Source of the DNA: an uncultured Mailhella sp.
Lineage (GTDB): Bacteria; Desulfobacterota; Desulfovibrionia; Desulfovibrionales; Desulfovibrionaceae
Length of the DNA: 20,870 nucleotides
Direction of reading: 5' to 3'
NCBI GenBank assembly: GCA_944324625.1
Contig: CALUWZ010000009.1
Span: 1 to 20,870, forward strand
In this document: piece after piece, positions 3,557 to 16,056 of the stretch
Position numbering within the stretch: position 1 is the first letter of the stretch
Layout: each line of letters starts with the position of its first letter
Notes under the pieces: model-generated
Told to the model about the DNA's origin: nothing
The model's database searches: none
The model's input: the letters and a program-made list of their open reading frames with translations, nothing else
Translations under genes and position numbers: made by a program

Positions 3557-4486
<930 letters not shown>

Positions 4487-4635
4487 TCAATGTTTTTTCG
4501 GAATATTTATCCATAAGTGCTGCAATAACTATGCATGACCCTATTTTTCGTAATATTTTTAAAACCGCAAAAGTATTAATCGGACAGTTGTTTTTCTGAT
4601 TTATTTTAATAAAAATTTTCGGTTCTTGAATATTA

Positions 4636-4651
4636 TGTTTCACGTGAAACA
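4636..4651. promoter_or_regulatory. parS centromere site 2
   Basis: This is a second perfect copy of the 16-bp parS palindrome TGTTTCACGTGAAACA, 256 bases from the first, start to start. Two exact copies beside parAB are well beyond chance for a 16-mer. Confidence 0.95.
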
Positions 4652-4799
4652 AGTATGTTTATATTAAATGCATTAAAAATAATGTGTGCATTAAATACAA
4701 AATTGTAATTTAATGTATTCATTCGAAAAAAAGTTTATGGCATTTGTCAGAAAAATAATAATATAACGTATTGTTTTACTGTGTAATTTTTTTTAAATC

Positions 4800-4828
4800 T
4801 TGACAAAAACAAATTTGTAAGATAGATA
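4800..4828 (+). promoter_or_regulatory. Predicted promoter of the lactate operon
   Basis: TTGACA (4800-4805) is followed after 17 bases by TAGATA (4823-4828), a perfect -35 with a weak -10. A perfect 10-bp palindrome ACAAATTTGT (4809-4818) fills the spacer, where a bound regulator would block polymerase. No known regulator is assigned to it. Confidence 0.5.
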
Positions 4829-4882
4829 AAAAAATCAATTTTACAAAATATGAATAATAATAAGAATATAAGGAGATTGCTT

Positions 4883-5515
4883 ATGTCATCTGCCCAAACT
4901 CAAGCAAACCTTGTAGACCTTTATAAGGAGAAAGCCGCTGCCACTGCCTGCCAGATTGCGGAATTTTCTTCTTTTGAGGAAGCCATTCCCCACCTTCTTT
5001 CTTTAATGGAAAAGAAAGCTCCCTGTGAACTTTTGTATGAAGAAGATGTGGAAAAAGGCCCGAAAGGCCCCAACGGCTGTCCCACCCGTGTACAAAAGGT
5101 TGTTGCGGCGCCGCAGCTCGGCGAATATTATGAACCGTTGAAAAAAGCTTTTGAAGAAAAAGGCTATAAAGTTGTTGACAGCGGCCTTCGCCATTATCTT
5201 GCCGGTATTGACATGGGTATTGCCCTTGCCGAAAAAGGCATAGCCCAGAGCGGAAGCTGCATGGTCAACACCAATAATGAAGATACGCGTCTTGCCACCA
5301 TGATTTGTGAATTCAGCGTGCTTGTGCTGAAAAAATCACAAATCATGCCCACGGTGCTTTCCATGGCCGATGTGCTGCGCAGTGAAATGAGTGCAAGTCC
5401 CGCAAACTATATAACATTTATTTCCGGCCCAAGCCGTACTGCGGATATTGAACGTGTCGGCGCCGTCGGCGTGCACGGTCCCCTTGAAATGCATATTGTC
5501 CTGTTGGAGGGATAA
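4883..5515 (+). CDS. lutC: LutC-type LUD-domain subunit of L-lactate dehydrogenase
   Basis: The gene encodes a 210-residue LUD-domain protein, the small partner of the LutABC-type lactate oxidising complex that converts lactate to pyruvate. Visible features include a C-terminal GPSRTADIE motif (about 182-190) followed by GVHGP, characteristic of LutC/YkgG proteins, and a central ALAEKGIAQSGSCMV stretch typical of the LUD fold. I place the start at ATG 4883 because AAGGAG lies 7 bases upstream. An in-frame ATG at 4850 has no ribosome-binding site and adds only 11 Asn/Arg-rich residues. The stop codon directly abuts the start of the next gene, so translation is probably coupled. Desulfovibrio species carry the same pair in their lactate oxidation cluster. 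The order and motifs make the role likely; stereospecificity cannot be read from sequence. Confidence 0.88.
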   Translation: MSSAQTQANLVDLYKEKAAATACQIAEFSSFEEAIPHLLSLMEKKAPCELLYEEDVEKGPKGPNGCPTRVQKVVAAPQLGEYYEPLKKAFEEKGYKVVDSGLRHYLAGIDMGIALAEKGIAQSGSCMVNTNNEDTRLATMICEFSVLVLKKSQIMPTVLSMADVLRSEMSASPANYITFISGPSRTADIERVGAVGVHGPLEMHIVLLEG

Positions 5516-7654
5516 ATGAAAGACAGCGTAAAAACCTCAAAAGATTATAAAGAATATCTCGAAGAAGCTCTCAATGACCAGTTTTTGAGAAAAACACTGG
5601 ATAAATTTGCCGTGGACTACCGTGTAAGCCGCGAAGCGGTTTTCAGCGAAATCGACGGACGCGATCTTATTAAAAAAGTTGCAGACGCAAAAGACAATGC
5701 CTGCAGGCACATGGAAGAGCTGTATGCCAAGTTTAAGGAAGAAGCCGAAAAACGCGGCGTTATCGTGCACCGTGCCAAAGACGCAAAAGAAGCAAACGAA
5801 ATCATTGCCTCCATTGCCAAAAAGCATGAAGCAAAGAAAATTTTGAAATCCAAGTCCATGACTGCGGAAGAAACGCACCTGAACCATAAGCTTATTGAAG
5901 AAGGCTGTGAAGTTACCGAAACCGACCTCGGCGAATGGCTCATTCAGCTGCGCCATGAAGGCCCTTCTCACATGGTTATGCCCGCCATTCACCTTTCCCG
6001 CTATCAGGTTGCCGACGACCTCGGAAAAGTAACGGGTGAAAAATACGACCCTGAAGACATTCAGCGTCTTGTTAAAGTTGCCCGCGTGGAACTTCGCGGA
6101 AAATTCATTGAAGGCGAAATAGGCATTTCAGGCGCAAACTTCTGTATTGCGGAAAACGGAACCTTCGGCATTGCCACCAACGAAGGCAACGGAAGAATGG
6201 TAACCACCCTGCCCAAAGTGCATATTGCCCTTGCAGGCCTTGACAAGCTTATTCCCGATTTTGAAACAGCCCTCACCGCATTGACCGTTCTGCCGAGAAA
6301 CGCAACCGGTCAGCGCATTACCGCCAACGTAACCTTTATCAACGGTGCGGGCGAATACGCAATCGGCGAAGACAACAGAAAAGAACTGCATGTTGTTTTC
6401 CTTGACAACGGCAGAAGCGAAATAGCCAAAGATCCTCTTTTCAGCCAAGTGTTCCGCTGCGTGCGCTGCGGCGCCTGCGCCAACGTCTGCCCTGTTTTCC
6501 GCATGGTGGGCGGCCATAAAATGGGTCATATTTACATCGGCGCCATCGGCCTTATCCTGACCTATTTCTTCCACGGCAAAGACAAAGCCGCGATTTTGGC
6601 CCAAAACTGCATAGGCTGCGAAGCATGCAAAGACATCTGCGCAGGCGGCATTGACCTGCCCCGTCTTATTACGGAAATCCGCAATAAAACTGCCAAGGAA
6701 GTAGGTCAGCCCATGCAGGTTGCTTTTGTGGGCAAAATCATGCAGAACAGAAAGCTTTTCCACAGACTGCTGAAATTTGCCCGTTTCTCACAAAAGCCCT
6801 TCAAAACGCAGGAAGGTTTTGTGCGTCACCTGCCTGATGCGCTTTTCGGCAAACACCAGTTTAAATCCCTGCCTACTTTGGCAGACAAGGCATTCCGCGA
6901 AATTTACGCTGAACATGCCTATACCCTTGAAAATCCGAAAATGCGCGTTGCCCTTTTTGCAGGCTGTGCGCAGGACTTCATTTTCCCCGAGCATTTGGTA
7001 GCGTTCATGAAGCTTATGAAAGCCCACAACGTGCAGGTTGATTTCCCCGAAGAACAAACCTGCTGCGGCCTGCCCGTGCAGATGCTTGCCCTGAAAGAAG
7101 TTGCAGCGGACATTGCCCGTCAGAACGTTAAAGCCATTGACGCTTCAAAATACGATTATATCGTAACCCTCTGCGCAAGCTGCGCATCTCATCTGAGCCA
7201 CAACTACAAAAACTTCATCGGCGACGAATGCAGGGAATTTTCTTCCAAGGTAAAAGATTTCTCTTCCTTTATGAATGACGTGGTAAAACTTGATATGAGC
7301 CTCTTTAATAAGAGTGCGGAAAAAGTAACCGTGCACATTCCCTGCCATCAGGCCAGAAGCCTCGGCGTTATGGAACAGCCGAGAAACCTTATCGGTCAGG
7401 TTGCGGAATATACGCCGTCCAAAGAAGAAGCCAGCTGCTGCGGTTTCGGCGGAACCTATTCAGCCAAGTTCCCCGAAGTTTCCAAAGAACTTCTCGGCAA
7501 CAAAATCCGCCGCATTGAAGAATCTCAGGCTGAACGCATTGTTACGGACTGCCCCGGCTGCACCATGCAGATCAGAGGCGGCCTGCACAAGAAAGGCAGC
7601 AAAGTGCGCGTAACCCATATTGCGGAACTTCTTGCGGACAATCTGAAAAAATAA
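5516..7654 (+). CDS. Fused LutB-LutA iron-sulfur lactate dehydrogenase subunit
   Basis: This 712-residue protein joins what are two subunits in Bacillus LutAB. The N-terminal part (about 60-300) is a LUD domain with a GISGANFCIAENGT stretch. Two 4Fe-4S clusters follow, with cysteines 315, 318, 321, 325 and 365, 368, 371, 375 in CxxCxxCxxxC spacing. The C-terminal part (about 480-700) carries two CCG domains, with CCGLPV and CASC in the first and CCGFGGTY and CPGC in the second, likely binding further clusters. It would oxidise lactate to pyruvate at the cytoplasmic face and pass electrons to the membrane chain. ATG 5516 follows the lutC stop without a gap, and GGAGG lies inside the end of lutC. 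A similar 700-residue fusion paired with a LutC-like protein is known from Desulfovibrio. Function by family is strong; exact electron acceptor is unknown. Confidence 0.9.
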   Translation: MKDSVKTSKDYKEYLEEALNDQFLRKTLDKFAVDYRVSREAVFSEIDGRDLIKKVADAKDNACRHMEELYAKFKEEAEKRGVIVHRAKDAKEANEIIASIAKKHEAKKILKSKSMTAEETHLNHKLIEEGCEVTETDLGEWLIQLRHEGPSHMVMPAIHLSRYQVADDLGKVTGEKYDPEDIQRLVKVARVELRGKFIEGEIGISGANFCIAENGTFGIATNEGNGRMVTTLPKVHIALAGLDKLIPDFETALTALTVLPRNATGQRITANVTFINGAGEYAIGEDNRKELHVVFLDNGRSEIAKDPLFSQVFRCVRCGACANVCPVFRMVGGHKMGHIYIGAIGLILTYFFHGKDKAAILAQNCIGCEACKDICAGGIDLPRLITEIRNKTAKEVGQPMQVAFVGKIMQNRKLFHRLLKFARFSQKPFKTQEGFVRHLPDALFGKHQFKSLPTLADKAFREIYAEHAYTLENPKMRVALFAGCAQDFIFPEHLVAFMKLMKAHNVQVDFPEEQTCCGLPVQMLALKEVAADIARQNVKAIDASKYDYIVTLCASCASHLSHNYKNFIGDECREFSSKVKDFSSFMNDVVKLDMSLFNKSAEKVTVHIPCHQARSLGVMEQPRNLIGQVAEYTPSKEEASCCGFGGTYSAKFPEVSKELLGNKIRRIEESQAERIVTDCPGCTMQIRGGLHKKGSKVRVTHIAELLADNLKK

Positions 7655-7666
7655 ACAAAAAAACAT

Positions 7667-7695
7667 TTTCCCTTGGTCCCTGCGGCCAAGGGAAA
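7667..7695. terminator. Hairpin between the lactate dehydrogenase and permease genes
   Basis: A 10-bp perfect stem TTTCCCTTGG / CCAAGGGAAA with a 9-base loop begins 12 bases after the lactate dehydrogenase stop. On the plus strand no T-run follows, so it may be a weak terminator, an attenuator or an mRNA-stabilising stem that sets permease expression apart from the enzyme genes. Confidence 0.5.
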
Positions 7696-7906
7696 TAAAA
7701 GCTGTTTTCGGACAGCGGTCTTGTTTTGCTGCCTGAATCCGGCGCAGTTTTTATTGCGGCTGATCAGCGGAAAGAGGACAGCATAGCGGCAGAAAAAAAA
7801 CGGCAGGCCGCCGTATCATATTGGGGAACGGCAGGCAATGCATATTTTGCAGACAACGGAAAGGGAGCCGTTTCTGTATTAATCAAATTTAAGTGGAGGT
7901 GTAGGT

Positions 7907-9628
7907 ATGAGTTTTGGATTTTATGCTCTTTTGGCATTTATTCCCATTCTTATTGCTCTTGTTCTTATGGTTGGCATGCGTTGGCCTTCTACCCGTGCCA
8001 TGCCGATTGCATGGATTTCTGCAGCCGTGCTTGCTTTTGCTGTATGGAATCTTGATATCGTGCGCATTGCCGCTTTGTCCGTTCAGGGCTTTATCACGGC
8101 TTTCGGCGTACTGATTATCGTATTCGGCGCACTGCTTATTTATTATACGCTTCAGACAAGCGGCGCCATGGAAACCATACAGGCAGGCATGCAGAAAATT
8201 ACGCCCGACCGCCGTCTGCAGGCCATTATCATCGGCTTTATGTTCGGCGCTTTTATCGAAGGTGCGGCAGGCTTCGGAACGCCGGCGGCTTTGGCGGCGC
8301 CGCTTCTTATGGGGCTTGGCTTCCCTCCGCTCTGCGCTGCCATTATCTGCCTTGTGTTCAACAGCGTACCCGTAACCTTCGGCGCAGTGGGAACACCCGT
8401 TATCCAAGGGTTCAGCCCCATTCAGAATATGGCATTTGATGTTTTGAAAACTATTAATCCAAGTGCCGTTCCTTTTGATGTTTACAAACACATCGGCGAA
8501 TTTGTAACCCTCATGCATCTGCCCATGCTCATTCTTTTGCCCATCGGCATGCTTGGCTTCATGACGCGCTTCTTCGGCAAAAACAAAAGCTGGTCAGAAG
8601 GTTTTGCGGTTTGGAAATACTGCATTATGGCTTCCGTATGCTTCGGCGTGCCGTACCTCATCATTGCATGGACGCTCGGACCTGAAATTCCGTCCCTCAT
8701 CGGCGGCCTTATCGGCCTTGGCGTATTGGTATATCTTACCAAAAAAGGCGTATGCGTTCCCAAGGACGTATGGCTTTTTGAAGACAGAGATCATTGGGAT
8801 CCCGAATGGTCAGGCGTAATCAGAGCTGAAAACATACATGAATTCAAAGAACACATGAGCCAGCTCAAGGCATGGATGCCCTATATTCTCTGCGGTGTTT
8901 TCCTTGTGCTTACCCGCGTGCCCCAATTCGGCCTCAAAGCCATTATCACCGATCCCATGTTCAATCTCGGCCTGAGCAATATTTTCGGCGTTGAGGGCGT
9001 AAGTTCCTATATTGCCGTTCTGAACCTGCCGGGCACCATTCCGTTTATTTTGGTTTCCGTTATTACCATTTTTATTCACGGCATGCTGAAAGACGATGAA
9101 ATAGGCTCCAAAAAAGTCAGCCGCGCATGGGGCACAGCCATTCAGAAAATGACCGCGCCTACCATTGCCCTGCTTTCCGCTGTTGCCCTTGTTTCCATTT
9201 TCAGAGGAACGGAAGCCACCACTGTGGAAAGCCTTATGTATCACGGCAGAGGCGTTTCCATGCCCTTGGCCATGGCTATCACCATTTCCGAACTTACGGG
9301 CGACGCATGGGCCATGCTTGCTTCCTATATCGGCGGTTTGGGCGCATTTATCACAGGCTCCAATACTGTTTCCGACCTTCTTTTCTCAAACTTCCAGTGG
9401 GATGTTGCCCAAACTCTCGGCTATGACTACTGGCAGAGCATTGTCATTCTTGCGGCTCAAGGCGTCGGCGGTGCCATGGGCAATATGATCTGCGTGCACA
9501 ACGTTGTTTCCGTCTGCGCCGTGCTCGGCATGATCGGCCACGAAGGCGCCATTATCCGCAAGACATTCTGGCCCTTCCTTATTTACGGTATCCCGGCAGG
9601 CATTATCGCCCTTGTTCTTGTTATGTAA
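7907..9628 (+). CDS. lctP: L-lactate permease, LctP family
   Basis: This 573-residue polytopic inner-membrane protein has many long hydrophobic segments, about 12-14, and few charges. It takes up lactate, probably with protons. The conserved LctP core is visible: [20 protein letters not shown], then [15 protein letters not shown], and near the C-terminus [17 protein letters not shown] and [21 protein letters not shown]. Length is normal for LctP/LldP (about 550-570). ATG 7907 is preceded by GGAGGTG at about 10 bases. It lies 252 bases after the lactate dehydrogenase genes on the same strand and ends at a strong terminator. The context supports lactate as substrate; glycolate is a known alternative for some family members. 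Confidence 0.93.
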
Positions 9629-9655
9629 TGCAGTAAATGCCTGTCGGCAGACAAT

Positions 9656-9686
9656 AAGCCCTTTCATCGGAAAGGGCTTTTTTTTT
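9656..9686 (+). terminator. Intrinsic terminator after lctP
   Basis: A perfect 10-bp stem AAGCCCTTTC / GAAAGGGCTT with loop ATCG is followed by an unbroken T-run to 9686. It ends the lactate operon 27 bases after the lctP stop. Confidence 0.93.
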
Positions 9687-9826
9687 GCTCAGTCATCTGT
9701 TCGGTCTGCGGTTAAAAAAATGCGGAAAAAATGCGCACGGGAAACAGCGTCGATGCTGCCTTCAGGGCGTGCTGCCGCTGTTTCTGCACTGCGGGAGGCG
9801 TGCCTGCGGGGTCAGGCAAGGGCCGC

Positions 9827-9858
9827 AAAAAAATACCCCGCATTGCGGGAATGCGGGG
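9827..9858 (-). terminator. Intrinsic terminator after the first dctP gene
   Basis: A 9-bp stem CCCCGCATT / AATGCGGGG with a 5-base loop is followed on the minus strand by TATTTTTTT. It lies about 50 bases past the dctP stop at 9912 and ends the ureohydrolase-dctP transcript. The 140 bases between this and the lctP terminator show no gene. Confidence 0.88.
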
Positions 9859-9911
9859 CAATCGGGTTGAGTGTTGAGAGCAACCTTTGTTTTGGAGTTT
9901 ATAAATGAACG

Positions 9912-10913
9912 TTATTGCAGTCTGCCTGTTGATTTTGCGTAATTCTTCAAAATTTCGACACCCTTGGCTGTTTCAGGGAATTTTTGGGCTTCTTCGTTCC
10001 AAACTTGTGCGGCGGCTTCGGTGAGTTTCTGGATGTCTTCGTCAGGGAATGTTGTTACTTTGCCTTTGAAAACAGTATCAATGGCTTTAATGCTTTCGTC
10101 CATGCCCCACATATAGTATACGAATTCGGTCATTTGGGCTGCAGCGCTGAAAGCGGCTTTAATGTCGTCGGGGAAGCGTTCCCAAAGACGCTTGTTGATA
10201 AAAAAGCTGTCGACAACAGGGTCAAGAATCGGGGTTACGTTAAGGTACGGCGCAACTTCAAAAAATTTCGTTTCCACGTATTCTGCGGCACTGCCGTAGA
10301 CAACGCCGTCGATTTGGCCAGTGGTCAGGGCAAGATAAATGTCTTCAGGCGGAAGATTTACGCAGTTGATGCCAAGTTTTGTCAAAGCCTTGGCTGTGGC
10401 ACCCACGGCGCGGATATTCATTTTCTTCATGTCTTCCAAAGAATTGATGGGGGTTTTGCTCAGCGTGGTGAAAGGAACAGTATAGGCAGGTCCGAGGTAA
10501 ACAACGCCGTTTCTTGCGTATTCGCTGCTGATGAGTTCACGCAGTCCGCATTTGTCGAAAATATATTTTGCTTCAACGGGGTTGGTCCAGCTCATGGGCA
10601 GGCCTGCTTCCACGGTGCCCATTTTATTTTCCGTAAAATGGTGGCCTGTGCCGTGGCCGATGTCGATCATGCCGCTTTTTACGGATTTCAGGATATTTTC
10701 AGAGCCGACAAGTTCACCGGAGGTGAAAACTTGGATTTCGACTTTGCCTGCAGTAAGTTTTTTTACCTGTTCGGCAAAATATTGGCTGGCAATGGCCGTT
10801 GTCGGGGAATACCATGTTTGCAGTTTCAGCATGTAATCGGCTGCTTGGGCATACTGTGCACCGAACAGAACGGAGGCAGACAGAACAGCGGCTGTAAAGA
10901 ACTTTTTAAACAT
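9912..10913 (-). CDS. dctP: TRAP transporter periplasmic solute-binding protein (DctP family), copy 1
   Basis: This 333-residue exported binding protein catches a substrate in the periplasm for a TRAP permease. A signal peptide is clear: MFKKFF, a hydrophobic core, then QYAQA before ADYMLK. The family core follows, with LTAGKVEIQVFTSGELVG, then a helix with INSLEDMKKMNIRAVG carrying the conserved carboxylate-binding arginine, and a Tyr/Gly-rich GQIDGVVYGSAAEY strand. ATG 10913 has AAGGAG 7 bases upstream; a TTG two codons earlier is less likely. It lies 14 bases after the ureohydrolase and has no membrane subunits of its own; the nearest DctQ-DctM pair is about 2 kb away. It is clearly related to the second dctP at 15043. 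The arginine suggests an organic acid or similar anion as ligand; the identity is unknown. Confidence 0.9.
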   Translation of the reverse strand: MFKKFFTAAVLSASVLFGAQYAQAADYMLKLQTWYSPTTAIASQYFAEQVKKLTAGKVEIQVFTSGELVGSENILKSVKSGMIDIGHGTGHHFTENKMGTVEAGLPMSWTNPVEAKYIFDKCGLRELISSEYARNGVVYLGPAYTVPFTTLSKTPINSLEDMKKMNIRAVGATAKALTKLGINCVNLPPEDIYLALTTGQIDGVVYGSAAEYVETKFFEVAPYLNVTPILDPVVDSFFINKRLWERFPDDIKAAFSAAAQMTEFVYYMWGMDESIKAIDTVFKGKVTTFPDEDIQKLTEAAAQVWNEEAQKFPETAKGVEILKNYAKSTGRLQ

Positions 10914-10927
10914 AATCAATCTCCTTA

Positions 10928-11932
10928 CTATTTGTTATTTTTTTTATTCCATGCAACAAGGCTCATAATTTCAAACATAATGTAGGCAGCAACCTGAGCG
11001 GTTATTTTATTCGGATAATCCTTGGTAGGCATAAGGCAGACAACATCGCCGCCGATGACGTTCTGGCCTTTCAGGCTTCTGAGTATGGCCATGGCATTGT
11101 CCACGCTGAGGCCGCCGCAGCCGGGTTCAAGGTTGGAAACACCCGGAGCAATTGCAGGGTCAAGAACGTCAAGGTCAAAGGTTATGTAAATGGGCTGGCC
11201 GTCCAGACGCTTGTTTATGCGGTCAATGGAATTGTTCAGGCCTATTTTGTCAAATTCCGCTTTGGTCAGAACGTCATAGCCGAGATCAAAGCTGGGCTTG
11301 AGCCAGTCAAGGGTTCTTGTGTGGCCGCGTATGCCGATCTGCACGCTTTTTTCCGGGTCAATATGGCCGTCACGCACGAGATAGCTTCCCCAGTGGGCAG
11401 AGGAACGTTTTGCACCCATAAAGTGTTCGATATTGTGGAATGTATCGGTATGGGCGTCAAAATGCAGAAATGCCGCTTTTCTGCCGCCGGTTATTTTGGA
11501 ATCTTTGCCTGCAATGGACTGAACAATGCCGCCTGTAACGCTGTGGTCGCCGCCCACGGAAACAGGATTGATTTTGCGGCTGTCAAGATTTTTATAAAAA
11601 GCTGCAATGCGGTCAATGCATTTTTCGTTGTCCATGCCTTCGGGAAGGGGAACGTCGCCCAAATCATAAATTTTGCATGTATCCAAAGGAGAAAATTCAA
11701 ATTCATTGTGTACGCGGCGCGCATAGGCAGAAACGTCACGCACGGCTCTGGGGCCCAAATGCTGATCCCTTTCCGTTGTGCCGTTGCCTGAGCTGTGCGG
11801 CACGCCGACCAAGGCTATTTCACAGTCAGAAAGATCCGTTTTGTTCGGGCAGCGGAAAAAAGTTGGAATGCCCCACCAGTAAAGTGCTTCAACAACTCTT
11901 TCTTCATCTGTCATTGTTTGAACATTTGACAT
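10928..11932 (-). CDS. Divergent ureohydrolase-family (arginase/agmatinase fold) enzyme
   Basis: This 334-residue enzyme has a binuclear manganese site of the ureohydrolase fold, which hydrolyses guanidino or formimino groups to urea or formamide. The metal ligands are all present: GGDHS (His130), FDAHTD (Asp159, His161, Asp163) and FDLDVLD (Asp253, Asp255). The region before them aligns with E. coli agmatinase, including SVQIGIR. Two positions depart from known enzymes. The motif after the last ligands is APGVSNLEPGCGG, and where arginase and agmatinase have DVVEV-P with the guanidinium-binding Glu, this protein has DVVCLMP (Cys299). ATG 11932 is preceded by AAAGGAG. dctP follows 14 bases later, so uptake and hydrolysis are probably cotranscribed. 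A taurocyamine-, guanidinoacetate- or other amino-acid-derived substrate is possible, but none is shown. Formiminoglutamase is another family option. Confidence 0.85.
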   Translation of the reverse strand: MSNVQTMTDEERVVEALYWWGIPTFFRCPNKTDLSDCEIALVGVPHSSGNGTTERDQHLGPRAVRDVSAYARRVHNEFEFSPLDTCKIYDLGDVPLPEGMDNEKCIDRIAAFYKNLDSRKINPVSVGGDHSVTGGIVQSIAGKDSKITGGRKAAFLHFDAHTDTFHNIEHFMGAKRSSAHWGSYLVRDGHIDPEKSVQIGIRGHTRTLDWLKPSFDLGYDVLTKAEFDKIGLNNSIDRINKRLDGQPIYITFDLDVLDPAIAPGVSNLEPGCGGLSVDNAMAILRSLKGQNVIGGDVVCLMPTKDYPNKITAQVAAYIMFEIMSLVAWNKKNNK

Positions 11933-11985
11933 AATTGACTCCTTTTGTATCTGTTGATATTTAATACAGTTGATAATATGTTATC

Positions 11986-11995
11986 TGATATATCA
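11986..11995. promoter_or_regulatory. Candidate GntR operator upstream of the ureohydrolase
   Basis: TGATATATCA is a perfect 10-bp palindrome 54 bases before the ureohydrolase start. Further TTGATA half-sites occur at about 11954 and 11970. A minus-strand -10-like TATTAT (11978-11973) lies just downstream, with no clear -35. The same palindrome recurs at the regulator and TRAP promoters. Confidence 0.6.
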
Positions 11996-12011
11996 ATTTA
12001 GTTGTTTTTAA

Positions 12012-12040
12012 TTTTTCTTATACTGAAAGCATAAGAAAAA
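12012..12040. terminator. AT-rich inverted repeat after gntR
   Basis: TTTTTCTTAT / ATAAGAAAAA forms a perfect 10-bp stem with a 9-base loop, 10 bases past the gntR stop. It could end the gntR transcript on the minus strand just ahead of the ureohydrolase operator. The stem is weak because it is almost all A-T. Confidence 0.45.
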
Positions 12041-12049
12041 TCAAGAGGT

Positions 12050-12706
12050 TTAATTAAAATACGTCATCAGGATAAAATCTTTGTTATATTCAAAGTTCCA
12101 GTGCTTGTTTTCAATGGTCTGCTTTATTTTTTCAATATCCTTGTTTTCAATGGCTTCTATGATTTCAAGGTGTTCCGCGCAGGCATCCTGAATCCACTGC
12201 AGGGGAAAATCTTTTTTGGGCAGATCCCACAAACGGCTTTTGATGGGATCAAGAATTCTGTCCACAAATTTATTTTCCGCAACTTTCATGAAAATATTAT
12301 GAAAGTCTTTGTGCAGCTGGTCGTATTCGCGTCTTTTTCCCTCTTCCAGAGCTTTTACCATTTTTTGGTGCAGTTTGCGCATCTGAGCCAAAACAGGTTT
12401 GGTATAGCGGTGCAGGCTGTGGGTTATCATTGCCGTTTCCAAAGTGCCGATGATTTCAAAAAGATACGAAATGTCTTCGATATCCAGCCTGTTCATCACT
12501 ACTTTGCTTCGGGGAAATATGGTCAGAAATCCTTCAGCTTCCAGACGGATAAGCGCATCCCGCAGAGGACTTTGGCTGATCTGCAGATCTTCGCGTATTT
12601 TTTCCAGATCAAGCGCAGCGCCGGGATATAAATTTCCTTCCATTATCTGTTCCCGCAGATAATCATAAACTTGGTCACTTAATTTTTTTGTTACAATTTT
12701 AGCCAT
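12050..12706 (-). CDS. GntR-family transcriptional regulator, FCD (FadR-like) subgroup
   Basis: This 218-residue regulator has an N-terminal winged helix-turn-helix (about 1-70) with LSDQVYDYLREQIMEGNLYPG and a recognition region SQSPLRDALIRLEAEGFL. An all-helical FCD ligand domain follows (about 75-210). Its likely metal or ligand residues are the His in KDFHNIF, the His in EHLEIIEAI and the His in NKHWNF. The start is set at ATG 12706 with GGAGA upstream; a longer frame to 12757 would cross the promoter. FCD regulators bind small organic acids and control their own catabolic genes. It sits among the ureohydrolase and TRAP genes, and a palindrome overlaps its own -10, so it most likely represses the whole cluster and itself. 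The effector is unknown but is probably the transported solute or a product of it. Confidence 0.9.
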   Translation of the reverse strand: MAKIVTKKLSDQVYDYLREQIMEGNLYPGAALDLEKIREDLQISQSPLRDALIRLEAEGFLTIFPRSKVVMNRLDIEDISYLFEIIGTLETAMITHSLHRYTKPVLAQMRKLHQKMVKALEEGKRREYDQLHKDFHNIFMKVAENKFVDRILDPIKSRLWDLPKKDFPLQWIQDACAEHLEIIEAIENKDIEKIKQTIENKHWNFEYNKDFILMTYFN

Positions 12707-12726
12707 ATATGCTTGTCTCCATAAAA

Positions 12727-12757
12727 TTGATATATCAAATATCAATTTGTCTGTCAA
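12727..12757 (-). promoter_or_regulatory. gntR promoter with overlapping operator
   Basis: On the minus strand TTGACA (12757-12752) is followed after 17 bases by TATATC (12734-12729). The -10 lies inside the perfect palindrome TTGATATATCAA (12727-12738), and an extra TTGATA half-site lies beside it. A repressor bound here would shut its own promoter, which is classic autoregulation. Confidence 0.7.
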
Positions 12758-12791
12758 GGAATTTAAAATTGTTTTATGAAAAAATTAAGTA

Positions 12792-12945
12792 TCAAAAATG
12801 GTTATGATAAATTTCAGCTGCGGGCAGCAGTTTTCCGTCAGTGCGGTATGCAGCTGCAAATACATTGTCAAGTTTTCTGCGGCAAAGCCTGTCAGCCGAA
12901 AGCGTTTCGGAGCAGGCGGCTTTCATGGGGCACGGCGTCAGCCAT
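12792..12945 (-). pseudogene. Possible decayed or tiny gene downstream of dctM
   Basis: Fifteen bases after the dctM stop there is a strong ribosome-binding site AGGAG (12955-12951), and 5 bases later an ATG (12945) opening a 17-codon frame MADAVPHESRLLRNAFG. One frame over, an open frame of 44 codons (12926-12792) ends in KLLPAAEIYHNHF. The stretch is GC-richer and more coding-like than the spacers around it. It may be the frameshifted remnant of an operon gene, or a small protein. I do not recognise either product. Confidence 0.25.
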
Positions 12946-12960
12946 AAAAACTCCTGTTTT

Positions 12961-14280
12961 TTATTTGTTGAAAATGACATTCGGAAGCCATGTGACAAGG
13001 CCGGGAAACAGCATAAGGATAAGCAGGAGCAGGGCCTGAATGGCGATAAACGGCACGGCTCCCCAGTAAATGTCCTTGAGGGTGACGCCTTCGGGCGCAA
13101 CAGCCTTCATGTAAAAAAGATTTAATCCGTACGGCGGCGTGATATAAGCCATCTGCATGTTTACGACGAACAATATGCCGAACCATACAGGGTCGTAGCC
13201 GAGTCCGAGGATAATGGGGATATAAATGGGCATGCACATGAACATAATGGCGATGTCATCCATAAACATGCCTAAAATAAAGAAACTCAGCTGAATGACA
13301 AGAATAATCACAAAGGGGTTTGCATCAAGCCCGAGCACAAGGGATTTGATCATGGCGGTAGCGCCGAGGCCGCTGTAAACCTTGCTGAACATCAGGGCAG
13401 CGATGATAATGTAGCCTGCAAAGCCGGAAATGGCAAAAGTCTGTTTGCAGGCTTTTTTGAGCATGTCCACGGTCAGCCTTTTTTGAGCGGCCGCACATAC
13501 CAGCGAACCGGCAGCACCCACGGCGGCGGCTTCCGTCGGGGAAGTGATGCCGAAGAAAATGCAGCCCAAAATGCTGAAAATAAGACCCATGGGCAAAATC
13601 AAGGTTTTGAGTGCTTTTAAGCGCACGTTGAGGGGCAGGATTTCTTCTTTTGGAATGGCAGGCGCAAAATCGGGCTTAATCAGGGCAACTATGCCTATAT
13701 ATACAATATACATAACCGCAAGCATAAGACCGGGAATAATGCCGGCGGCAAAAAGCTTGCCGACTGATGCGCCGCTGATGAAGGAATACATGACCATCAT
13801 CATGCTGGGCGGAATCAAGAAGCCCAGTGCGCCGCCGGCCTGCACAATGCCGACCGCCAGACTTTTGTTGTATTTTTTCTGCAGCATGGCAGGAACGGCG
13901 ATAACTCCCATGGAAAGGACAGTTGCACTGCTGACGCCGAGCATGGCGGCCATGACGGCGCAGATAATAATGGTGCCCATGCCGAGGGCGCCGCGGACAC
14001 GGCCTGACCACATATACATGGTGTCAAACATGTCTTTGGCAATTTTGGATTCGTGGAGAATGAAGCCCATGAAAATAAAAAGCGGCACGGCACTCAGGAT
14101 AATGTTGTTCATAAGGTCGAGGGTTGCAAAGTAGGCAATGTCCATGGCTCCTCCGCCCCATAAAAAGAGCGCAGCCAGCGTGCCTACGGACCCAAGGCAA
14201 TATACGATGGGAAGACCCGTTCCCATAAGAACCAGCATGGAAAGGAACATTAAAGCGGTAATTTCGTAAGCACTCATCAT
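12961..14280 (-). CDS. dctM: TRAP transporter large permease subunit (DctM family)
   Basis: This 439-residue integral membrane protein has about 12 hydrophobic segments and forms the sodium-coupled transport channel of a TRAP system. Typical DctM features are the N-terminal MGTGLPIVYCLG, a GVSSATVLSMGVIAVPAMLQ loop, a GALGFLIPPSMMMVMYSFISGASVG segment and a conserved C-terminal MAYITPPYGLNLFYMK. The length of about 430 is normal. The start ATG at 14280 overlaps the dctQ stop (ATGA) with AGGAG 9 bases upstream, so translation is coupled to dctQ. An upstream extension inside dctQ is open but needless. Both flanking DctP proteins, at 9912 and 15043, could feed it. Solute identity is not given by the sequence. 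Confidence 0.93.
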   Translation of the reverse strand: MMSAYEITALMFLSMLVLMGTGLPIVYCLGSVGTLAALFLWGGGAMDIAYFATLDLMNNIILSAVPLFIFMGFILHESKIAKDMFDTMYMWSGRVRGALGMGTIIICAVMAAMLGVSSATVLSMGVIAVPAMLQKKYNKSLAVGIVQAGGALGFLIPPSMMMVMYSFISGASVGKLFAAGIIPGLMLAVMYIVYIGIVALIKPDFAPAIPKEEILPLNVRLKALKTLILPMGLIFSILGCIFFGITSPTEAAAVGAAGSLVCAAAQKRLTVDMLKKACKQTFAISGFAGYIIIAALMFSKVYSGLGATAMIKSLVLGLDANPFVIILVIQLSFFILGMFMDDIAIMFMCMPIYIPIILGLGYDPVWFGILFVVNMQMAYITPPYGLNLFYMKAVAPEGVTLKDIYWGAVPFIAIQALLLLILMLFPGLVTWLPNVIFNK

Positions 14281-14780
14281 AAGATTTCTTCTCCTGTAAC
14301 TGCAAGCCAAAGATTACGCAGAAATTCTGACAGCGTTTGCAGAACCGTCAGGATAAAGGCAATGGGAATAAGGGCTTTCCAGTGGTAAATGGGCTGTCCC
14401 CATGCGGAAGTGGAAATTTCTTTCATAACCCATGATTCTGCCGCATAAAGGACTGATGTATAAATAAGCACAAAGAAAAACGAAAGGGTAAAGGCATAGG
14501 TCAGGCAGTTGACCACGGCTCGGGTGCGGGGTTTCCAGTGGGAAGAAAAAATATCCACGCCCACCTGAACTTTTTCAAGAATTGAGCAGGGTCCGGCATA
14601 AATCATGTATACGCCGAAAATCATGGTGCTCAGCTCCACCCCCCAAAGCGTGGGTGAGGAAAAGAAATAACGCAGAATAACGTCCAAAAGCATGATTGCC
14701 ACCAAAGGAACTATTATCCACATGGTGCAGTCTGTTATCACGCGGTTTATTTTGTCCAGAAAATGAATGAATTTTACCAT
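14277..14780 (-). CDS. dctQ: TRAP transporter small membrane subunit (DctQ family)
   Basis: This 167-residue protein has four predicted membrane helices (about 18-40, 50-70, 87-110 and 130-160). DctQ proteins pair with DctM and help dock the periplasmic binding protein. Characteristic features are a first helix with MLLDVILRYFF, the LWGVELSTMIFGVYMIYAG segment and a charged VQVGVDIF loop. ATG 14780 has AAGGAG about 8 bases upstream. It overlaps dctM by four bases (ATGA), the usual QM order. A promoter and a twin operator lie within 125 bases upstream. DctQ is a poorly conserved family, so context adds much to the call. Confidence 0.88.
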   Translation of the reverse strand: MVKFIHFLDKINRVITDCTMWIIVPLVAIMLLDVILRYFFSSPTLWGVELSTMIFGVYMIYAGPCSILEKVQVGVDIFSSHWKPRTRAVVNCLTYAFTLSFFFVLIYTSVLYAAESWVMKEISTSAWGQPIYHWKALIPIAFILTVLQTLSEFLRNLWLAVTGEEIL

Positions 14781-14856: not shown

Positions 14857-14903
14857 TGATATATCTATAAATATATCATACAAAATTTCAAAAAACATTG
14901 CAA
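14857..14903 (-). promoter_or_regulatory. dctQM promoter with twin operator half-sites
   Basis: On the minus strand TTGCAA (14903-14898) is followed after 17 bases by TATGAT (14880-14875). Just past the start point lie two 8-bp arms, TGATATAT and ATATATCA, separated by 6 bases (14857-14878). The left arm itself begins a 9/10 match to TGATATATCA. A bound repressor would cover the -10 and the start point. Confidence 0.65.
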
Positions 14904-14963: not shown

Positions 14964-15017
14964 TTGACCTGATAATTCTTTATTGATATATAAGCAAATA
15001 TATTCACTGATATTTAG
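14964..15017 (+). promoter_or_regulatory. Promoter and operator of the second dctP
   Basis: TTGACC (14964-14969) is followed after 17 bases by TATATA (14987-14992). The -10 lies in TGATATATAA (14984-14993), a 9/10 match to the shared palindrome. A further copy of the 14-base string ATATTCACTGATAT, also present near 14849-14862, sits at about 15000-15013. Confidence 0.6.
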
Positions 15018-15042: not shown

Positions 15043-16056
15043 ATGAAAAAATACAAACTGATACGTAAGTTTAAAAAAATAGCGGCATTGGTGTTTTTGG
15101 GAGCGGCATGTTTTGCGGCGGACGCAGATTTTCTGTATGCAGAACCTCTGGAAATGCGCGCCCAAACATATTACAGCAGCAATATGGCTCTGACGCTGGA
15201 TACGTTTGCGAAAAACGTCAATGAAAAATCAGGCGGAAAGCTGCATATTTCCGTTTATTACTGCGATCAGCTGGTCAGTACGCCCAATATGCTCAAGGGC
15301 ATAAAAAACGGTATGATTCCCATAGGCAACATTATTGCCCACATGTATCCGGAAATAAAGGCAGGCCGCATTCTTTCCGCAGCGCCCTTTGCCACTTCAT
15401 CCGTGGAAGAGGCCATAGAGCTTTTTGACAAGGGCGGACTGGAAGCTTTTGCCGAAAGGCAGTTTGAAAAACAGGGCTTGGTGTATTTGAGTTCCGCATG
15501 GGCTGCTCCGTATCATCTTCTTTCAAAAAAACCCGTCAACTCTTTGGATGATCTCAGAAAAATGCGTGTCCGCGCGTTGGGAATGACGGCAGAAATGCTG
15601 AAAATTCTTGGGGTTACCTGCGTGGACATTCCTCCGGAATCGCTGTACATAGCGCTGCGCGATGATATTATTGACGTTGTGGTTTACGGTGCCGCCAATG
15701 ACTACGTTCAGTTTAATCTTAATGAAGTGGCAAAATGGTACAACACTACCCCGCTTGTCATTCCGGTTGTAGACTGTTTGGTTATTTCCAAGGACGTATG
15801 GGATACGCTCAGCCCCGATCTGCAGAAACTGCTCAAACAGGAAGCAAAAGCCGTAAGCAGGCTTTGGTATGATGAAACTACCAAGAACGAAGAAGAATTC
15901 TGCAAAACCGTTTTTAAAGACACGCTGTGCGAGTTTCCTGCCGAAGACGTGGAAAAACTGCGTCAGGCCGCCTATGCCGTGTGGGAAGCGGAAATGCTCA
16001 AGGATGAAGAATCCAAGGAAGCCGTTATGCTGATTAAAAAATTTCTGAATAAATAA
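15043..16056 (+). CDS. dctP: TRAP transporter periplasmic solute-binding protein (DctP family), copy 2
   Basis: This 337-residue binding protein is divergent from dctQM. A basic start (MKKYKLIRKFKKI), a hydrophobic stretch and a likely cleavage after FLYA give an exported protein. The core resembles copy 1 throughout, with paired segments such as KPVNSLDDLRKMRVRALG (conserved binding arginine), CVDIPPESLYIAL and IIDVVVYGAANDYVQF. ATG 15043 has AAAAGGAG upstream; the frame is open 20 codons earlier but that part covers the operator. Being next to dctQM and under the same palindromes, this is the best candidate as their standard partner. Ligand is unknown; it probably carries a carboxylate, as the conserved arginine suggests. 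It is not a tandem duplicate, as many residues differ. Confidence 0.9.
   Translation: MKKYKLIRKFKKIAALVFLGAACFAADADFLYAEPLEMRAQTYYSSNMALTLDTFAKNVNEKSGGKLHISVYYCDQLVSTPNMLKGIKNGMIPIGNIIAHMYPEIKAGRILSAAPFATSSVEEAIELFDKGGLEAFAERQFEKQGLVYLSSAWAAPYHLLSKKPVNSLDDLRKMRVRALGMTAEMLKILGVTCVDIPPESLYIALRDDIIDVVVYGAANDYVQFNLNEVAKWYNTTPLVIPVVDCLVISKDVWDTLSPDLQKLLKQEAKAVSRLWYDETTKNEEEFCKTVFKDTLCEFPAEDVEKLRQAAYAVWEAEMLKDEESKEAVMLIKKFLNK

Follow-up and report, generated by a model that had tools for sequence, protein, structure and literature searches.

A clade of ureohydrolases with Cys in place of the guanidinium-binding Glu may act on small zwitterionic guanidino acids

Which substrate does a ureohydrolase take when it keeps every metal ligand of its family and carries Cys where the guanidinium-binding Glu should stand? 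The gene that raises this question, named P0001 here, lies in a stretch of 20,870 nucleotides from an uncultured Mailhella sp. of the Desulfovibrionaceae (contig CALUWZ010000009.1; called the window below), in which a model working from the letters alone had noticed a ureohydrolase with six metal ligands, a Cys at the Glu position, a divergent loop and a transporter gene close by. The Glu is regarded as part of the grip of ureohydrolases on guanidinium, and we describe an entire clade that lost it and kept the metals. On balance, we lean towards reading the members of the P0001 clade as metal-dependent hydrolases whose substrate is a small zwitterionic guanidino acid, imported in the case of the window by a co-regulated tripartite ATP-independent periplasmic (TRAP) transporter; that the substrate of P0001 is a guanidino compound is, taken by itself, probable.

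P0001 scores 211.3 bits against PF00491, the ureohydrolase family (cut-off 22), and the open reading frame and all six metal ligands (His130, Asp159, His161, Asp163, Asp253 and Asp255) are as the sequence-only reading had given them; the identity of the metal and the activity we infer. The AlphaFold model (predicted local distance difference test, pLDDT, 89.7) confidently predicts the alpha/beta fold of arginase, and guanidinopropionase is nearest in the structure comparison. P0001 stays well below the cut-offs of the models for agmatinase (TIGR01230, 130.5 against 174.3; NF002564, 183.6 against 302), arginase (TIGR01229, 60.2 against 227.6) and formimidoylglutamase (TIGR01227, 82.8 against 229). 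HMMER pairs its stretch DVVCLMPTKD with DVVEVAPAYD of Escherichia coli agmatinase and DVVEVSPPFD of guanidinopropionase, and Cys299 stands opposite Glu in all five reference alignments (guanidinopropionase 3nip; agmatinases 4dz4, 7lol and 7lba; proclavaminate amidinohydrolase 1gq6), which bears out the replacement of Glu by Cys.

A family tree and a search for homologues, both proposed in the sequence-only reading, place P0001 in a separate clade of several phyla that has the Cys in common. Scanning 84,980 species genomes gave 578 loci, of which the best 80 were retained; they include 27 clade relatives with 50-73% identity in the best segment, and the drop to 39% at the next locus marks a clear boundary. 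The clade may have further members, since these are the best 80 of 578 loci. In plasmid records, the top five matches (55-59%, four of them retrieved) belong to the clade, and the next stands at 37%. In the tree, the 42 clade rows form one group (support 100/100) whose stem measures about 2 changes per site and which adjoins a guanidinopropionase-like group; the two GpuA-like rows of this tree, built without solved reference sequences, belong to that neighbour and lie outside the Cys clade. The clade spans Thermodesulfobacteriota, Pseudomonadota, SAR324 and Actinomycetota. Half I (18 rows) includes the window, Rhodobacterales, SAR324 and Actinomycetota, and half II (23 rows) is mostly alphaproteobacterial; one locus, L030, belongs to neither. 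The clade is rare in the window's order (2 of 297 genomes, the window's own counted) and occurs in 13 of 385 alphaproteobacterial genomes, one of which, the centre G059, was picked for carrying a clade gene. Where annotation is visible, its genes are named arginase family protein, and the Cys clade is apparently uncharacterised.

The tree and the column counts comprise all 27 clade loci and 16 of the 53 outgroup loci of the genome scan, plus chosen others; the row set is restricted to frames matching three metal motifs, some rows repeat one gene, and L105, L137, L147 and L148 were left out. Within this set, every clade row retains all six ligands and carries Cys in the guanidinium-Glu column (42 of 42); the rows outside the clade, which include agmatinase-like, guanidinopropionase-like and dimethylguanidine-hydrolase-like proteins, all carry Glu there (36 of 36). 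Cys299 is likewise invariant in the first alignment, of 32 sequences. A sequencing error or a lone mutation was rejected as its origin, because the same Cys recurs in all clade rows from several phyla. Among loci outside the metal-motif filter, inspected separately, L006, L117, the L118/L119 pair, L013 (partial), L015, L020 and L022 have Glu; in L120, where an arginase-like domain is part of a fusion protein, the residue is Gly, but five of the six ligands are gone as well. The contrast between Cys and Glu holds among proteins with a metal site; the exception is the beta member of a pair resembling dimethylguanidine hydrolase (DmgH), which lacks the ligands and retains Glu.

The sequence is changed beyond Cys299. 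As the sequence-only reading had pointed out, the loop after the last ligands departs from that of agmatinase: GVSNLEPGCGG stands in place of GTGTPEIGG, with two additional residues (alignment of 26 of the 27 clade loci and 21 of the 53 outgroup loci). Thirty more positions are clade-specific, including His46, Asn50, Asp56-Gln57-His58, His170, Trp181 and Tyr184. Asp56, which every clade row (42 of 42) has at a column where 35 of 36 others have Gly, is a candidate alternative acidic residue for the guanidinium pocket. The catalytic His of the family, which we take to be arginase His141, falls in a MAFFT column with Ala in 40 and Ser in 2 of the 42 clade rows, versus His in 33 of the 36 others. 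Residue 178 is opposite this His by MAFFT, by hhalign and against 3nip and 1gq6; the partner is His180 against 4dz4 and Gly173 against 7lol and 7lba. Because His180, two residues beyond the column, is near-invariant (40 of 42 clade rows) and the pairwise alignments disagree, the altered column may be a mere loop shift. The fixed Cys, the 30 further positions and the changed catalytic-His column in several alignments would also fit an enzyme that cleaves the C-N bond of a non-guanidine, such as an amidine, amide or lactam of a betaine-like compound, for which an acidic clamp would therefore be unnecessary. We consider this quite unlikely, for reasons found in the gene neighbourhoods of relatives (see below).

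Among known systems, the best match in both sequence and structure is GpuA, the 3-guanidinopropionase of Pseudomonas aeruginosa (3nip, 3niq), which shares the fold and the six ligands. P0001 differs from it in having Cys for Glu, the GVSNLEPGCGG loop, a remodelled N-terminal loop and a place in a separate clade with a long stem, and is 34% identical to it over the structural alignment. Plant-type arginase (6vss, 6vsu) has a similar fold at 28% identity and a lower Z, 33.6; its loop resembles the GVSxxEPGG pattern of P0001, and plant arginase retains the guanidinium Glu. Dimethylguanidine/metformin hydrolase (DmgH, MefH, MetCaCb) also has the ureohydrolase fold and, according to PMC11399263 and PMC11271267, attacks substrates in which one guanidino nitrogen is fully substituted. 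According to the former, as far as its text is available, metformin hydrolase is an alpha/beta complex of two genes that needs nickel and HypAB, with a degenerate metal site in beta, unlike the single gene in the window.

What the enzyme is fed with is suggested by its neighbours (Table 1). The ATG of dctP1 (10913) follows the ureohydrolase stop by 14 bases and has its own AAGGAG, and AAAAGGAG lies upstream of the ureohydrolase ATG, so that each gene has its own ribosome-binding site. The Arg in the IRAVG stretch of DctP1 we take to be the carboxylate-binding Arg; a conserved Arg of TRAP binding proteins selects carboxylates (PMC4646407, in the part available). A putative operator shared by enzyme and transporter genes adds weight to the TRAP link, which had already been drawn from the sequence alone. 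Exact copies of the palindrome TGATATATCA precede the ureohydrolase gene and gntR, and two copies with one mismatch lie between dctQ and dctP2; these four matches in the window compare with a mean of 0.44 in 100 shuffles, none of which gave four. Searched genome-wide with zero mismatches allowed, the 11-mer TTGATATATCA is found in the 1.8-Mb assembly (88.7% complete) only at 11986-11996 and at the gntR site. Sister loci L148 and L025 hold no exact copy, and the three copies with one mismatch that L148 does hold are within chance (three were reached in 23 of 200 shuffles), so the operator is known from the window only. On this pattern of sites, carrier and enzyme would form one regulon. DctP2 is 38% identical to DctP1, and the two distinct DctP proteins appear to use one membrane pair (DctQ and DctM).

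Table 1 Features of the window around the Cys-type ureohydrolase gene.
Feature	Position	Strand	Remarks
Cys-type ureohydrolase P0001	10928..11932	minus	334 aa, ATG start; PF00491, six metal ligands, AlphaFold model
Cys299 codon TGC, at guanidinium-binding Glu position	11036..11038	minus	alignment column: Cys in 42/42 clade rows
dctP1, TRAP solute-binding protein	9912..10913	minus	NF037995, 107.7 bits against cut-off 50
GntR-family regulator, directly upstream of ureohydrolase	12050..12706 (ATG 12706)	minus	several GntR models, each below cut-off
dctM, TRAP large permease	12961..14310	minus	TIGR00786, 309 bits against cut-off 268
dctQ, TRAP small permease	14277..14780	minus	weak YiaM match below cut-off; position before dctM
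dctP2, second TRAP solute-binding protein, divergent	15043..16056	plus	start set at the second Met of the open reading frame
Putative operator TTGATATATCA	11986..11996	minus	54-64 bases before ureohydrolase ATG
Putative operator, palindrome TTGATATATCAA	12727..12738	no strand	21-32 bases before gntR ATG
One-mismatch operator copy	14857..14866	plus	dctQ/dctP2 divergent intergenic region
Second one-mismatch operator copy	14984..14993	plus	dctQ/dctP2 divergent intergenic region

Carriers of betaine type, and genes for guanidino and methyl compounds, accompany relatives elsewhere. In a sister Desulfovibrio (L024), the clade gene stands behind a betaine/choline/carnitine transporter (BCCT) gene, whose product is nearest to carriers of trimethylamine, choline and glycine betaine, and behind a GntR gene whose product is 52% identical to that of the window; a Desulfobacterales clade gene likewise follows a BCCT carrier. 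The sequence-only reading had argued against plain agmatine or arginine as the substrate, and the scores below the NCBIfam cut-offs, the separate clade and the betaine-like carriers beside several relatives point the same way; the implied step from loss of the Glu to loss of guanidinium is not supported, as some neighbouring genes still indicate guanidino compounds. In Ruegeria pomeroyi and two other Rhodobacterales (L104-L106), three ProXWV-type genes are followed by a clade gene that overlaps a Glu-type ureohydrolase gene; the L104 copy of the latter, on one of these Rhodobacterales plasmids, is strongly guanidinopropionase-like, a close relative of GpuA, and the L106 copy groups with it in the tree. 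In the available main text of an R. pomeroyi transporter screen (PMC10130141), the words creatine, guanidin- and SPOA0 are absent.

The overlap raises the thought that P0001 is an inactive, regulatory or structural partner, as are the beta subunits of metformin hydrolase. A second ureohydrolase-like frame occurs at 5 of 31 clade loci (27 from genomes and 4 from plasmids; L033, L035 and L104-L106) versus 4 of 53 control loci, as counted by phmmer on stop-to-stop frames, with gene calls unreliable in L036, L040, L142, L143, L146 and L147. However, the metal ligands are retained throughout the clade, in contrast to the degenerate beta site described above, which makes an inactive subunit very improbable; moreover, the window gene stands alone, and the two further ureohydrolase genes of its genome are both on other contigs.

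On a Rhodococcus plasmid, the clade gene is divergent to genes for a major facilitator superfamily carrier, a creatininase-like protein and a cytosine-permease-like protein; genes for a sarcosine-oxidase-like protein and an aldehyde dehydrogenase lie farther out. Creatininase and creatine transport genes share one operon in Corynebacterium glutamicum (PMC8864220, in the part available). Among 13 regions from 12 further alphaproteobacterial genomes, a query with dimethylglycine dehydrogenase gave a strong match together with ProX and ProW in L135 and a weaker, partial one in L147. Methylated-compound neighbours with no evident guanidine gene among those annotated, namely an MttB-family gene near the clade gene in L135 and, in L030, an M24-family gene whose product is DddP-like, add to the case for a non-guanidine substrate. 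Against that case, guanidinopropionase-like, creatininase-like and arginine-route genes adjoin clade members in different lineages. The M24-family protein of L030 (7044-8279, in a metagenome-assembled genome of the Oceanospirillaceae) is near 4b28 and 4rzy, and its gene is the third downstream of the clade gene.

Under the preferred reading as a guanidino-acid hydrolase, the TRAP transporter would import a small zwitterionic guanidino acid, and the GntR regulator would sense this acid or a product of it and control transporter and enzyme through TTGATATATCA-like operators. P0001 would be a two-metal hydrolase of ureohydrolase fold with Cys replacing the guanidinium Glu, in which the metal-bridging hydroxide would attack the guanidino carbon to yield urea and an amino acid. 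For half I, the window's half, creatine is our best single guess, although a tentative one: it would be split into sarcosine and urea, and the uncharged Cys may make room for the N-methyl group of creatine. This is the reaction of creatinase (EC 3.5.3.3), which has a metal-free pita-bread fold of M24 type; P0001, with a predicted arginase fold, would be its unrelated counterpart. The wider proposal, of an arginase-fold creatine amidinohydrolase with Glu swapped for Cys, present in four phyla and fed by TRAP, BCCT or ProXWV-type carriers, is doubtful, and if true it would add a second, unrelated kind of creatine-splitting enzyme, including in relatives of gut Desulfovibrio. If creatine is the substrate, a bacterial route for a compound plentiful in animal tissue has been overlooked, and the clade is a natural experiment in how the arginase fold changes specificity. 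Human AGMAT (PMC9772407) and comammox guanidinase (PMC11410670) were tested on creatine and did not use it, according to the accessible parts of these papers. No ureohydrolase for creatine or guanidinoacetate is among the literature matches listed, with subscription papers and preprints outside that scope and novelty unproven; the matches listed on creatine in gut sulfate reducers contributed nothing to this account.

Several findings weigh against the preferred reading. The carrier type varies between lineages, and a creatininase neighbour occurs at 1 of the 31 clade loci. Creatininase is found in 0 of 13 clade-positive versus 11 of 372 clade-negative alphaproteobacterial genomes, a zero that says little because just 0.4 would be expected in 13 genomes. 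Released urea would not go to urease, because the window's genome, 88.7% complete, gives no match to urease alpha; the sarcosine reductase GrdB has no match there either, but control genomes are equally silent and the result is uninformative. The dimethylglycine-dehydrogenase query matches 8 of 27 clade loci versus 2 of 53 controls (L051-L103, which are rich in betaproteobacteria, unlike the clade), but the match in L036 is merely a short oxidase and three others are near-identical Mesorhizobium; among alphaproteobacteria only, the counts are 4 of 18 versus 0 of 18 (p 0.10), three of the four being near-identical. In addition, Glu is retained by the dimethylguanidine-hydrolase-like alpha of Aminobacter (L118), a name given for its tandem arrangement and a Ser-Thr-Ser stretch resembling one in the available text of PMC11399263. 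A methylated leaving nitrogen thus does not demand loss of the Glu, and the rule that it forces such a loss is weakened.

The remaining counterpoint concerns arginine. The family of 5-guanidino-2-oxopentanoate decarboxylase is present in 7 of 13 clade-positive versus 24 of 372 clade-negative alphaproteobacterial genomes (p about 1e-5; 6 of 12, p 9e-5, without the centre G059), a statistic uncorrected for genome size. At L042, the gene for this decarboxylase (698 bits, cut-off 500) lies directly upstream of the clade gene and on its strand, and genes for a flavin adenine dinucleotide (FAD) oxidase, a RidA-like protein and an ATP-binding cassette importer are on that strand too; at L043, a gene of succinate-semialdehyde-dehydrogenase type (687 bits against 646) follows the clade gene. 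These data would fit a clade that hydrolyses 4-guanidinobutyrate (or 4-guanidinobutyraldehyde or 2-keto-arginine), the step at which arginine transamination or oxidation sets urea free, to yield gamma-aminobutyrate. As an account of the whole clade we hold it credible but unlikely. Six of the seven genomes with the decarboxylase carry half II, and five of those six lie in one 9-row subtree, so that the independent events are few and the figure is inflated by relatedness. The adjacency is seen in L042 only, and none of the six genomes of the window's genus, the window's own included, has the decarboxylase above cut-off. Furthermore, guanidinopropionase retains the Glu in the HMMER alignment, and guanidinobutyrase retains it too. 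In Sinorhizobium meliloti, the decarboxylase homologue prefers a non-guanidino keto acid, and the ureohydrolase SpeB2 acts on these arginine-route intermediates (PMC7268258, in the part available). For half II itself, the co-occurrence of the decarboxylase argues for an arginine-derived guanidino acid, with 4-guanidinobutyrate or a relative as our best guess.

Some minor observations complete the picture. Upstream of the ProXWV-ureohydrolase genes of L104, an arginine-deiminase-family gene and an M20-type hydrolase gene (4103-6246) are perhaps a second guanidino-degrading route; at E 1e-10, the arginine-deiminase-family protein matches no solved structure. In L024, the sister Desulfovibrio, the BCCT-ureohydrolase pair is immediately followed by type I restriction-modification genes (9226-13208). 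In Aminobacter aganoensis, the DmgH-like ureohydrolases form a tandem pair (L118, 1429-3592), one member of which has degenerate metal ligands, and the arginase-like domain of L120 (433-2265, same genome), placed behind another domain, has lost five of the six ligands. The window also holds a lactate-use cluster at 4850-9628, in which genes for an LdhH-type L-lactate dehydrogenase (NF045670, 1003 bits, cut-off 800) and an LctP permease accompany a LUD/lactate-oxidation-like gene whose match is weak and below cut-off. The window's genome has a second ureohydrolase (L001, contig C11) with about 30% identity to P0001; its loop, GTGTPEVEGF, is unusual and recurs in L007-L009, which are from further genomes of the genus or family.
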